A stretch of DNA of 27,269 bases from a virus: positions 1 through 27,269 of IMG/VR virus record IMGVR_UViG_3300037963_000897. The stretch is one strand, 5' to 3'. Below, piece after piece: positions 7,036 through 25,840 of this stretch; the first letter of the stretch is position 1, and every line of letters starts with the position of its first letter. Below the pieces are notes generated by a model. It was not told the DNA's origin. It was given only the letters and a program-made list of their open reading frames with translations, and made no database searches. The translations under genes and the position numbers were made by a program.

Positions 7036-7470
7036 GTGCCTAAACTTGGTAAAAGAAGCATGAAAAGGTTGGAGGGTGTTGATCCTAGACTTGTATCTGT
7101 ATTACAAAAAGTGGTTAAGTATTACGATATTACAGTCATAGAGGGTTTGCGCACACAAGAAAGACAAAATGAATTACTTAAGGTTGGCAAATCAAAAACT
7201 AAGTTTGGAAAACATGTTCTTGGTAAGGCTGTGGACATTGCACCATATAATTTCCAAACCAAAAAAATAGACTGGGAAAATAGAGATGACTGGCATTATC
7301 TAGGAGGGTTTGTTTTAGGTGTTGCTGCTATGATGGGTGTAAATCTTAGATGGGGAGGTGACTGGTCATCACCTAGTCTTGATAAAAAAGTTATGATGGG
7401 TAAAGAAGTTAGAACTACATCTGATAATTCTTTTGACGATTTATTGCATTATGAGATTGTAGATGATTAA
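7036..7470 (+). CDS. Endolysin, peptidase M15 (L-alanyl-D-glutamate / D,D-peptidase type)
   Basis: 144 residues starting at GTG 7036, with GGAAG eight bases upstream and no gap from the putative holin. The M15 zinc site is intact: His60 and Asp67 in the GKHVLGKAVDI motif, and Asp135/His138 in FDDLLHYEI (catalytic acid and third ligand). The conserved GLRTQERQNEL helix (about 37-47) and the WGGDW strand are present. Family members cut peptide bonds in peptidoglycan stem peptides, and many phages use them for host lysis. There is no signal peptide, so export through a holin is expected. A free-standing tail-associated peptidase is less likely given the gene context. Confidence 0.82.
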   Translation: MPKLGKRSMKRLEGVDPRLVSVLQKVVKYYDITVIEGLRTQERQNELLKVGKSKTKFGKHVLGKAVDIAPYNFQTKKIDWENRDDWHYLGGFVLGVAAMMGVNLRWGGDWSSPSLDKKVMMGKEVRTTSDNSFDDLLHYEIVDD

Positions 7471-22489: not shown

Positions 22490-23194
22490 ATGATTTATTA
22501 TAGTTCAGACAATATAGATGATTTGTTTTTAGAAACATCAAAAGCACTTATTGAAAAAGGAGAAACAATTTCTCCGCGAGGTATGAAAACAGTAGAGCTG
22601 CAGCACGTTTGGCTTGAATTAACAAATATGCAGAAATGTATAGTTAATTTAAAACATAGAAAAATAAATAAAACATATTTAAAAAATGAGCTTAAATGGT
22701 ATTTATCAGGGTCATTAAAAATAGATTATATAAAAAAATATTCTTCTTTTTGGGAAAAACTTGTAGATAGTAATGGTACAATAAATAGTAATTATGGAAA
22801 CATAGCATTTATTCAAAAACAAAATGGCAAAAGTCAGTTTGAGTGGTGCGTAGATGCTATTAAGAAAGATATTAATACTAGACAAGCTATTATAAACTAT
22901 AATCAACCTTTACATAAATATGAAAATAATAAAGATTTTGTATGCACTATAGCGCAGCATTTTATGGTTAGGAATGGGAAATTAGATACAACAGTATTTA
23001 TGAGAAGTAATGATTTGATATATGGATTTACATACGATGCACCATGGTTTTGCTTAATATCAAAAAAAATAGCTAAAGCGGTAGGTTTAAAGTTAGGAAC
23101 ATATAGGCATTATGCTGCTAGCTTACATGTCTACGAAAGACATTTTAATATGTTACACAAAATATGTAAAAATACAACTCATTATATATTATAA
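22490..23194 (+). CDS. ThyA-family enzyme, probable dCMP (hydroxy)methylase
   Basis: 234 residues, ribosome binding site AGAGGGG. Family landmarks: Arg30, Glu67 in NELKWYLSG, NYG (101-103), Arg131, nucleophile Cys152, Arg172-Ser-Asn-Asp175 (phosphate site) and Gly179. In thymidylate synthase the next block is PFN, whose Asn selects dUMP; here it is TYDAPWF with Asp183 at that place. Asp there is the signature of dCMP hydroxymethylase (T4 gp42) and shifts TS to dCMP in known mutants. The usual PPCH around the nucleophile is FVCT. The likely product is 5-hydroxymethyl- or 5-methyl-dCMP; plain TS activity is the alternative. Confidence 0.72.
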   Translation: MIYYSSDNIDDLFLETSKALIEKGETISPRGMKTVELQHVWLELTNMQKCIVNLKHRKINKTYLKNELKWYLSGSLKIDYIKKYSSFWEKLVDSNGTINSNYGNIAFIQKQNGKSQFEWCVDAIKKDINTRQAIINYNQPLHKYENNKDFVCTIAQHFMVRNGKLDTTVFMRSNDLIYGFTYDAPWFCLISKKIAKAVGLKLGTYRHYAASLHVYERHFNMLHKICKNTTHYIL

Positions 23195-23275
23195 ACCCTT
23201 AAATAACCCTTAAAATTATATAAATAAAGGGTGTGCAGGTATGCTTTTTTTTAGTATATTTATAACGATGATTAA
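23194..23275 (+). promoter_or_regulatory. Second promoter module with paired AACCCTT boxes
   Basis: AACCCTT at 23194 and 23205 (11 bp apart, the first touching the stop codon of the ThyA-family gene), ATATAAATAAA (23218-23228), TATATT (23255-23260) and GATGATTAA (23267-23275). From the first box to TATATT is 61 bases here and 60 in the module at 17957; from TATATT to GATGATTAA is 12 in both. This points to the same control on both operons. The -35 region is poor (TGTGCA at 17-bp spacing), consistent with need for an activator bound at the boxes. Confidence 0.5.
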
Positions 23276-23305
23276 CTTAAATACTAACAAAAAGGAAAAC
23301 ATAAC

Positions 23306-24340
23306 ATGAATATAAAAGGACAATTTAATAATAATAGAGGTTTTGGTGTTGAGGTTGAATTTATTAGACCTAATAATGTATCAAAGCAAGATATATGTGA
23401 TGCTCTTACAGTTAATTGTAGAGTAGAAGGGTACAATCATATTACTAGACCACATTGGAAGATAGTAAGTGACTCTTCTGTTAGTGCTAACGGCCGCAGA
23501 GGTTATGTTGGTGATAATGAAATTGTTTCGCCTATATTATATGGTGAAAACGGTTTTGTGCAATTAAAATCTATGCTTGATACTCTTAAACAATTAGAGT
23601 GTGAAGTTAATTATACTTGCGGTATACATGTTCATCACGATGTTACTAATATGATGGTTCAAGGTAAAGAAAAAAGCCAAAAATTCTTAGCTAACCTTGT
23701 AAAATTTGTTGCTAAGTATGAGCATTTAATTTACAAGCTAGTTTCACCTTCAAGATTAGATAATAGACAATACAGTACACCTGTAAGAAGAGAGTATTTT
23801 AGTTACGATCTTGATGTTACTAAAAATGACGTTAAAAAAATGATTAATAAAGTAAAAAATGATTGTAACAGAAAATATAACAGAGGCGGCAACGTTATTG
23901 ATAGAGATCAACCAAGTCCAAATGTTCAACACAATAGAGCTTGTGGGCTTAATTTTCGCAACGTTTGGACAAGAGGTTCTGTTGAGTTTAGGTATCACAA
24001 TGGTTCATTAAATTTTGAAAAAATAGTTTCATGGATTGTATTTACTCAAGCTATTGTTAATGCTGTTGAAGATACTAAAAGCGTTTCTATGTCTTTTGTA
24101 CCAAATAATATAAAAGGTTTAGCAAGTTTAAGAGGTGCTATAGGTTTTATAAGAAGAAGCGGTATGGAGCCAACTGAAAGAACAGTGTTTTCAAGAGATG
24201 AATATGTTAACTTGTCTAATAAATATGTACAGAAAAGATACAAAGAGTTAAGTAGAAGAGAAGCTGACTATGAAGTAAATATGCAATATAGATATGTAAA
24301 AGACGGTTTAACAACTAATCAACAAGGAGGTTTAGCATAA
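23306..24340 (+). CDS. Amidoligase (COOH-NH2 ligase, glutamine-synthetase-like fold)
   Basis: 344 residues, ribosome binding site AAAGGA. Motifs of the putative amidoligase family (PF12224): RGFGVEVEF (Glu16, Glu18), WKIVSDSSV, NEIVSP (Glu72), CGIHVHHD (His108, His110), and TRGSVEFRYHNGSL (Glu227-x-Arg229), followed by the conserved helix EKIVSWIVFTQAIVNA. Members are predicted to use ATP to join an amine to a carboxyl group, forming amide or isopeptide bonds on peptides, cell-wall or other metabolites. It is first in a promoter-led unit; one base separates it from a glutamine amidotransferase gene. Its substrate is unknown. Confidence 0.82.
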   Translation: MNIKGQFNNNRGFGVEVEFIRPNNVSKQDICDALTVNCRVEGYNHITRPHWKIVSDSSVSANGRRGYVGDNEIVSPILYGENGFVQLKSMLDTLKQLECEVNYTCGIHVHHDVTNMMVQGKEKSQKFLANLVKFVAKYEHLIYKLVSPSRLDNRQYSTPVRREYFSYDLDVTKNDVKKMINKVKNDCNRKYNRGGNVIDRDQPSPNVQHNRACGLNFRNVWTRGSVEFRYHNGSLNFEKIVSWIVFTQAIVNAVEDTKSVSMSFVPNNIKGLASLRGAIGFIRRSGMEPTERTVFSRDEYVNLSNKYVQKRYKELSRREADYEVNMQYRYVKDGLTTNQQGGLA

Positions 24341-24341
24341 T

Positions 24342-25232
24342 ATGTGTGGGCTAGCAGGAGTTATTTTAAAACAAAAAAACAGAGATACGGAGGCGCTTAA
24401 AAGCGTCTCTGTTTCTTTTTCTAAAATGTTAACAGCAGCTAATATAAGAGGAGGCCATGCAACTGGTTTTGCATTAATTGATAAATATGGCGATTATGTA
24501 ATATGTAAAAAACCTAAAGAAGCTTATGATTTTTTTGATGATGAAGAAGTTAAAGATAATATTGATTTAGTATACGATGGTATTACAATAATAATGGGTC
24601 ATACAAGATACGCAACATTAGGTTCACCCTCTATTAATAAAAATAATCACCCGATTAGAACTGGTCAAACTATAGGTACTCACAATGGCTCTATATCTAA
24701 TCATAAAGAGCTTTTTTATAAATATGATATGCAAAGGTATGCACAAGTAGATAGTGAAGCTATATTTAGACTATATGAAACTTCTAATAATATTAGTGAT
24801 TTTATTACTAATAGATTACCAAAAGTAAAAGGCAGAGTTGCTATTGTTTGGGCCGATTTAGAGCTGCCAGATTATGTATATATGGTAAAAGCTAATAACC
24901 CAATTCAAATGGTTTATATTCCGGAATATGAGTGTTATGCTTATGGTAGTACTGATTCTATTATTAACGCTGGTTTTTGGGGTAATTATAAACATATTAC
25001 AATAAAACCTAATACAATGGTTCGAATTAATACTAAAACGCTTGAAATTGAAACACAGGAAGTTAAAATTGCAAAACCTAAAGTTAATAAATGGTCGTTT
25101 TATGATTCAAAGATTGGAGCATATAAAAACAAAAAAGAGACTGTACCAAGGTTTGTTCCTAGATTTTCATATAGTGACCAATTAAAAATGTTCGCAGCAA
25201 GTGATGGTTCAAAAATAAGAAAGGTAAAATAA
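24342..25232 (+). CDS. Class II glutamine amidotransferase
   Basis: 296 residues, with ideal AAGGAGG at 24324-24330. All Ntn-type glutaminase features are present: Cys2 nucleophile exposed after Met removal (MCGLAGV), RGGHATG (36-42), GHTRYATLG (Arg89), NNHP (101-104), THNGSISN (Asn115, Gly116 oxyanion) and VDSE (Asp137). It releases ammonia from glutamine. It lacks the SIS or PRTase domain of GlmS/PurF; about 70 residues at the C-terminus are basic and unassigned. The ammonia is likely used with the amidoligase encoded next to it. A strong terminator-like hairpin lies within codons 16-26. Confidence 0.87.
   Translation: MCGLAGVILKQKNRDTEALKSVSVSFSKMLTAANIRGGHATGFALIDKYGDYVICKKPKEAYDFFDDEEVKDNIDLVYDGITIIMGHTRYATLGSPSINKNNHPIRTGQTIGTHNGSISNHKELFYKYDMQRYAQVDSEAIFRLYETSNNISDFITNRLPKVKGRVAIVWADLELPDYVYMVKANNPIQMVYIPEYECYAYGSTDSIINAGFWGNYKHITIKPNTMVRINTKTLEIETQEVKIAKPKVNKWSFYDSKIGAYKNKKETVPRFVPRFSYSDQLKMFAASDGSKIRKVK
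24387..24420 (+). terminator. Intragenic terminator-like hairpin in the amidotransferase gene
   Basis: ACGGAGGCGCTT (24387-24398) pairs with AAGCGTCTCTGT (24401-24412): 12 pairs with two G-U, in practice a 10-bp stem with a TTAA or slightly larger loop, followed by TTCTTTTT (24413-24420). An alternative pairing, AAACAGAGA (24377-24385) with TCTCTGTTT (24406-24414), competes for the 3' arm. The codons used (ACG, GCG, AGC, GTC) are unusually GC-rich for this genome, which suggests that the structure is kept. It could attenuate transcription of the downstream genes. Confidence 0.45.
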
Positions 25233-25840
25233 TGTACGATTTATTTGTATATGGCACATTAAAAAAAGGTGGTTCAAATCACGAGTTTATAAAAGACTCT
25301 AAATTTCTAAGACACGAAATATTAAATCATCATGCCATTTATAAACCTAATGGTTTTAATTTTCCAATAATGTTACCTAATAAAGATAGCAAAGTATATG
25401 GAGAAGTATATAGAGTTGATAGTGATACGTTAGATAGATTAGATATGCTAGAACAAGAGGGTACATTTTATAATCGCTTAGATAATAGTATATTAGGCTA
25501 TCAATATTACTTATGGAAATATCAAGATGGTTTAGTTTTTAGCGAAGAAGACAAAATAAAAAATGGTTATTGGGTAACAAAAGGGGAGGTTGATTTAAAT
25601 TTAATAATTGACAATAGGGAATACACAGATAAAGCAGATAAACTAGTGTTTCACATGAGGTTTTTTGATGGGCAGCGAGCGCCAACAAACAAAATCTATA
25701 TGGATTTAGTAAGAAAAAGAAGTCATTTAGATTTAAACATTGATAGTGAAGAAATATTTTTAAGAGATTGCATTATAAAAGGAGTAGTTAGTGAATTTAA
25801 AGAACCAGAACACTCGTTTAATGTCTTGCAGCATCTGTGA
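25232..25840 (+). CDS. Gamma-glutamylcyclotransferase-like protein (AIG2/GGCT fold)
   Basis: 202 residues, TAATG overlap with the amidotransferase. The N-terminal domain has the family signature LFVYGTLKKGG (residues 4-14), VYGEVYRVD (55-63) and the LDMLEQEGTFYNR block (70-82) with the catalytic Glu (Glu74 or Glu76). The family releases 5-oxoproline from gamma-glutamyl amines, as BtrG does to remove a protecting group in butirosin synthesis. Residues about 125-202 are an extra domain of unknown type. In this cassette it probably trims a gamma-glutamyl product of the amidoligase (inference). Confidence 0.8.
   Translation: MYDLFVYGTLKKGGSNHEFIKDSKFLRHEILNHHAIYKPNGFNFPIMLPNKDSKVYGEVYRVDSDTLDRLDMLEQEGTFYNRLDNSILGYQYYLWKYQDGLVFSEEDKIKNGYWVTKGEVDLNLIIDNREYTDKADKLVFHMRFFDGQRAPTNKIYMDLVRKRSHLDLNIDSEEIFLRDCIIKGVVSEFKEPEHSFNVLQHL

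Follow-up and report, generated by a model that had tools for sequence, protein, structure and literature searches.

Genes at the amidoligase locus

Three coupled open reading frames, encoding an amidoligase, a class-II glutamine amidotransferase-fold protein (GAT) and a gamma-glutamylcyclotransferase (GGCT), lie at 23306-25840 of the window, i.e. the whole 27,269-bp stretch analyzed here, which is a fragment of an IMG/VR viral record, so that absence of further genes from it is not conclusive. The coordinates and coupling given in a preliminary description of this DNA were exact; all three frames are on the + strand, with a 1-nt gap between amidoligase and GAT and a 1-nt overlap (TAATG) between GAT and GGCT. 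The features of the locus are as follows.

23195..23305, + strand: intergenic block before the amidoligase, a possible promoter or operator (from conservation among relatives)
23306..24340, + strand: Amidoligase_2 (344 aa), predicted glutamine-synthetase/GCS2-like carboxylate-amine ligase (PF12224, AlphaFold2, Foldseek, residue conservation)
24342..25232, + strand: class-II (Ntn) glutamine amidotransferase-fold protein, GAT, 296 aa, nucleophile Cys2 (PF13522, GlmS match, residue conservation)
24387..24422, + strand: terminator-like RNA hairpin and U-rich tract within GAT codons 13-30 (terminator scan, compensatory pairs, synonymous recoding)
25232..25840, + strand: GGCT open reading frame, 202 aa, two domains
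25232..25573, + strand: GGACT/AIG2 core of GGCT, residues ~1-114, with YGTL motif and catalytic Glu74 (PF06094, PDB matches)
25586..25822, + strand: S domain of GGCT, residues ~119-197 (HMM of stand-alone S, hhalign, AlphaFold2)

Neighbors in the window include tail genes, a dUTPase, a thymidylate-synthase-like gene and a DUF5681 (terminase small-subunit-like) gene, and a small M15-type D-alanyl-D-alanine carboxypeptidase-like gene at 7036-7470 is likely the endolysin. An Rfam search of the window returned no match, and PADLOC returned a single weak one, to the GGCT (E 0.003).

Each enzyme matched its family above the Pfam cut-off: the amidoligase PF12224 (E 4.5e-31, 109 bits, cut-off 22), the GAT GATase_6 (PF13522; E 3e-14, 53.6 bits, cut-off 27) and the GGCT GGACT (PF06094; E 1.6e-19, 71 bits, cut-off 22.8, residues 4-114). 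All three active sites had been described as intact, and the residues named are correct and conserved across relatives. In the amidoligase, Glu16 and Glu18 are kept in 114 of 116 relatives, Glu72 in 115, and His108, His110, Arg150, Glu227 and Arg229 in all 116; Cys2, Arg89, Asn115-Gly116 and Asp137 of the GAT are invariant (39/39), and among YGTL-type GGCTs the YG[TS] motif is present in 38/38 and Glu74 in 37/38. Inactivated copies in related phages, which had been suggested as evidence against a working cassette, were not seen among these 116 amidoligases, 39 GATs and 38 GGCTs, and given this conservation there is no sign of decay.

The AlphaFold2 model of the amidoligase (pLDDT 91.8) had as its best PDB neighbors in Foldseek YbdK (prob 0.99, E 7e-4), bifunctional glutathione synthetase, glutamine synthetase and PafA/Dop, and the modelled fold together with the catalytic residues supports an ATP-dependent carboxylate-amine ligase. 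The window ligase shares its predicted fold and Glu/His/Arg motifs with the GCS2/YbdK, glutamine synthetase and PafA/Dop superfamily, but identities are 8-14%, TM-scores are about 0.3-0.4 and it belongs to a distinct Pfam family. The GAT matches the GlmS glutaminase domain (E 6e-6), and may be an ammonia donor; it could instead be a gamma-glutamyl hydrolase like EgtC, to which the match is weak (E 1e-4, under the cut-off). In ergothioneine (EgtA/EgtC) and butirosin (BtrJ/BtrG) biosynthesis a gamma-glutamyl group is added by a ligase and removed by a GAT-fold or AIG2-fold enzyme; neither core enzymes of those pathways nor a carrier protein was seen in the window, and the resemblance is one of analogy.

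The GGCT core matches AIG2/UPF0131 structures in the PDB. Two GGCT subtypes occur beside amidoligases, YGTL (n=38) and YGSN (n=24), the latter taking the place of the former in 24 amidoligase loci (L047-L089), which is consistent with one activity having been replaced by a distant relative. A class-II GAT-like domain and GGCT are fused in a single open reading frame in Phage C75C1 (L005:6729-7625).

The S family and its linkage to amidoligases

Fold and active site of the GGCT were borne out, but treating it as a one-domain protein had missed its C-terminus: the last ~80 of the 202 residues belong to a small-protein family, here called S, that otherwise has a gene of its own. In many loci a separate open reading frame of 74-95 aa, usually directly 3' of the amidoligase, matches the GGCT profile over its C-terminal portion alone, and since the joint GGCT profile took in S, the core and S were modelled by separate profiles. 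An HMM of stand-alone S alone finds the fused GGCT C-termini (window E 5e-4, best fused E 2e-11), and profile-profile comparison of S with the GGCT C-terminus (hhalign) gave a probability of 96.8% and E 2.1e-10. Arthrobacter phages carry a divergent S (E 1.5e-9), whose distribution over Arthrobacter records, 14 in all, coincides exactly with that of the amidoligase. No fitting model for S was found in Pfam or NCBIfam; in PHROG, 2 of 36 members match phrog_16392 (function unknown), with otherwise scattered weak matches. The predicted fold, two strands and three helices (AlphaFold2 pLDDT 86.6), has no credible solved match in the PDB (best E 2.5), and a few uncharacterised phage proteins match it in BFVD. 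One Arg is nearly invariant, with otherwise no invariant surface residue, and neither a conserved acceptor Lys, Asp or Glu nor a conserved C-terminus was found in S, the C-termini being variable overall with a few ending GGE, EGE or RGQ. The cassette kind and its enzymes were already known; no prior description of the S family, the GGCT-S fusion or the two-gene core was found in the literature and databases searched, a search outside which the founding cassette papers fall, and these three appear new, though priority is not established.

A profile scan yielded 79 viral amidoligase loci, with partners recovered by profile searches of the open reading frames at each locus, and 47 representatives at 90% clustering each had at least 2.5 kb downstream. 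A GGCT lies near the amidoligase in 37 of these 47 and a GAT in 24, and in five close viral relatives (68-90% identity) gene order is identical wherever the contig spans the cassette. A random, unlinked distribution, put forward earlier as an argument against a unit, is thus not what relatives show; the proposed three-gene unit stands as far as linkage goes, but GAT and GGCT are optional, with many loci, including most prophage ones, lacking both. As an independent test, the S model from viral and phage loci was applied to 30 loci from bacterial assemblies, mostly prophage-like and outside the training set. S was the next gene after the amidoligase in 26 (E 7e-8 to 4e-19); of the other four, one is on a contig that stops short of the site, and S went undetected in three. 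The 30 loci showed neither a GAT nor a GGCT core. Because many prophages carry amidoligase and S alone, the core unit would be ligase plus S, with GAT and GGCT as add-ons.

When amidoligases were pooled at 70% identity, S accompanied 50 of the 63 independent groups eligible for the count and went undetected in about 13; it is the ligase's most frequent companion. The 64 non-redundant loci with amidoligase and S have one S each, fused loci never carrying a second. In 39 of 45 cases stand-alone S lies no more than 190 bp from the stop codon of the ligase, and S and amidoligase share a strand in 85/85. Their distance matrices are correlated (r=0.65; 0.68 for stand-alone S only) to a degree reached in 0 of 2000 permutations, although shared phage inheritance predicts likewise. 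In 12 amidoligase-bearing genomes the S profile found the linked site only, plus one extra match in one genome, and a search starting from S in 395 genomes of one phylum gave 4 matches, all adjoining an amidoligase. Partnership with the ligase is not exclusive, because S also occurs as a conserved chromosomal gene without amidoligase, in 9 of the 10 Flavobacteriales genomes that have S and in 5 of the 6 such cyanobacterial genomes, and a strictly amidoligase-specific family was rejected on these stand-alone homologues. The chromosomal copies lie mostly beside a 2-oxoacid dehydrogenase gene in Flavobacteriales (L132-L140) and beside a pirin-like gene in cyanobacteria (L148-L152).

Possible roles of the module

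We tentatively favor reading the locus as a phage amidoligase module with a core of amidoligase and a small non-catalytic partner, S, to which GAT and GGCT are accessory. The amidoligase, judging from its modelled fold and conserved residues, would activate a carboxylate with ATP and couple it to an amine, the carboxylate most likely being the gamma-carboxyl of glutamate or of a glutamyl residue. S may bind the ligase or its target and set specificity, as its linkage, fusion and co-divergence suggest. The GAT-fold protein, with its conserved active site, may hydrolyse glutamine or a gamma-glutamyl amide, for ammonia or glutamate supply or for editing, and the GGCT would release gamma-glutamyl groups as 5-oxoproline, an activity that fusion to S would bring to the same target. 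A targeting or accessory subunit is preferred over a substrate role for S, with modest confidence, because of the missing acceptor residues and C-terminal conservation and the single near-invariant Arg. No signal-like N-termini were seen in the cassette proteins and the GAT can work only with its N-terminal Cys free, so all parts appear cytoplasmic; the target would then be a peptidoglycan precursor in the cytoplasm or a protein of host or phage, as opposed to the finished wall. Precursors of peptidoglycan and a cytoplasmic protein lead the target options, with a DNA base unlikely. Amidoligases have long been annotated in phages, and no established product or target was found for them in the literature searched.

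That phage cassettes of this type make amide or gamma-glutamyl linkages, a comparative-genomics prediction mentioned in the preliminary description, is indeed published (PMC5498523, PMC11945000; resting on Iyer 2009 and Hardies 2013). An alternative explanation could be an ordinary “peptidoglycan modification cassette” that alters peptide cross-bridges of the infected cell and blocks superinfection, with S an incidental passenger, as predicted for phiEco32, RIO-1, LUZ24, PSA-HP1 and others having GGCT, GAT and amidoligase (PMC5498523, PMC11945000, PMC10580990). Apparently cytoplasmic enzymes would be compatible with precursor modification, and the cassettes of RIO-1, PSA-HP1, phiEco32, LUZ24, PaP3 and tf cluster GGCT, class-II GAT and Amidoligase_2 among early/DNA-metabolism genes as the window does; gene order was checked for LUZ24 and RIO-1. 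The window differs in that the two other ligases of the cassette, the COOH-NH2 ligase (PF14395) and a RimK-type ATP-grasp, are absent from the available fragment; among 22 related records none had PF14395 above the cut-off and none a RimK-profile ATP-grasp ligase (controls positive 13/14; the window being a fragment). Moreover, S was not detected in the LUZ24 and RIO-1 cassettes, whose ligases are only distantly similar, and its linkage, fusion and one-copy pattern conflict with passenger status. Neither an experimental product of the published cassette nor experimental support for its target was found in the literature searched, and overall we consider this explanation rather unlikely. Another known arrangement is that of the Arthrobacter Laroyevirus-type module (Salgado, Laroye, Ottawa), in which amidoligase, GAT and an AIG2/GGCT gene are adjacent as in the window, but S is a separate gene 3' of GAT and GGCT lies upstream of the ligase, whereas in the window S is fused to GGCT.

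Auxiliary nitrogen metabolism has been suggested for a Planctomycete phage encoding GAT, amidoligase, ATP-grasp and GGCT (PMC10945688); under this reading the enzymes would serve the infected cell by recycling its glutamine, glutamate and ammonia. Small metabolites are GAT and GGCT substrates in known pathways, but a dedicated non-enzymatic partner would be unexpected for bulk metabolism and in many loci amidoligase and S have neither GAT nor GGCT in their vicinity, making this role improbable. Similarly doubtful is that S is itself the substrate, glutamylated by the ligase or conjugated by it to other proteins as phage tagging, with GGCT undoing the reaction. The ligase fold is common to PafA/Dop, whose partner Pup is a small protein, and S is near-obligate and single-copy, with the few endings noted above; its C-termini and candidate acceptor residues are nevertheless not conserved while one Arg nearly is, it is predicted to be a folded domain, and it also occurs on chromosomes without ligase. 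A Pup-like tag was rejected, S having no conserved C-terminal Gly-Gly-Glu/Gln. We give an equally low probability to the broader idea that amidoligase and S form a minimal protein-tagging or glutamylation system with GGCT-S as its eraser, distinct from pupylation and ubiquitin and carried by phages and prophages across many bacterial phyla.

Modified DNA bases had also been listed as a possible target. The protein encoded just upstream at 22490-23194 (234 aa) is thymidylate-synthase-like and most resembles dCMP hydroxymethylases; its Asp183 aligns with the corresponding residue of gp42, and the phage may make hydroxymethylated cytosine; the cassette could then attach amino acids to hydroxymethylated pyrimidines. 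This is countered by a relative, L010, in which amidoligase and GAT are retained (the GGCT position lies beyond the contig end) but an N4/N6 DNA methyltransferase (L010:6988-7887) stands where the window has its dUTPase-DUF6378-thymidylate synthase block, with no thymidylate synthase in the whole 33.8-kb record. Among ~90 loci such a gene accompanies the cassette only in the closest relatives of the window and in L039/L061, and the link to a pyrimidine hydroxymethylase that hypermodification would entail was not found. DNA-base modification as the main role was rejected on the L010 gene swap, and we regard it as very improbable. A homologue of the thymidylate-synthase-like protein precedes a beta-glucosyltransferase in Lactobacillus phage ATCCB.

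The favored module of amidoligase plus S has two implications. First is that a small near-obligate ligase partner, fusable to an enzyme that removes gamma-glutamyl groups, makes a vague prediction testable biochemically, for which cultured Bacillus and Arthrobacter phages carrying the module, such as Bacillus subtilis phage 031MP004 and Arthrobacter phage Laroye, are usable. Secondly, the minimal unit would be two genes, as opposed to a three-enzyme or seven-gene cassette.

Upstream block and GAT hairpin

The 23195-23305 block contains ACCCTTAAATAACCCTTAA..., with GATGATTA ahead of the amidoligase start codon; the ACCCTTAAATAACCCTTAA motif occurs once in the window, and the AACCCTTAAATAACCCTTAA block plus a GTGATTA-like element (23195-23300) is conserved in 8 aligned relatives. 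The cassette had been credited with its own promoter module, of which conservation of this block survives but a sigma-70 assignment does not: none was among the matches listed for the 111-bp gap before the amidoligase, a region with fewer matches than shuffles, leaving the promoter module weakly supported. A sigma-70 promoter of its own was accordingly rejected and the feature kept as a conserved block only. A TTGACT-17-TATTTT arrangement can be seen by eye in some relatives and is absent from the window.

The hairpin at the start of GAT is more stable in the window than in synonymous recodings (z -3.7, 0/1000) and similarly so in 7 relatives (L010, L017, L018, L020, L022, L025, L033); it is weaker or shifted in L011 and L036-L038 and absent from L024 and L029-L031. 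Its terminator-like form may keep output of GAT and GGCT-S below that of the ligase. Two pairs show compensatory change across 9 sequences, and the hairpin has been kept by selection at synonymous sites in several relatives.
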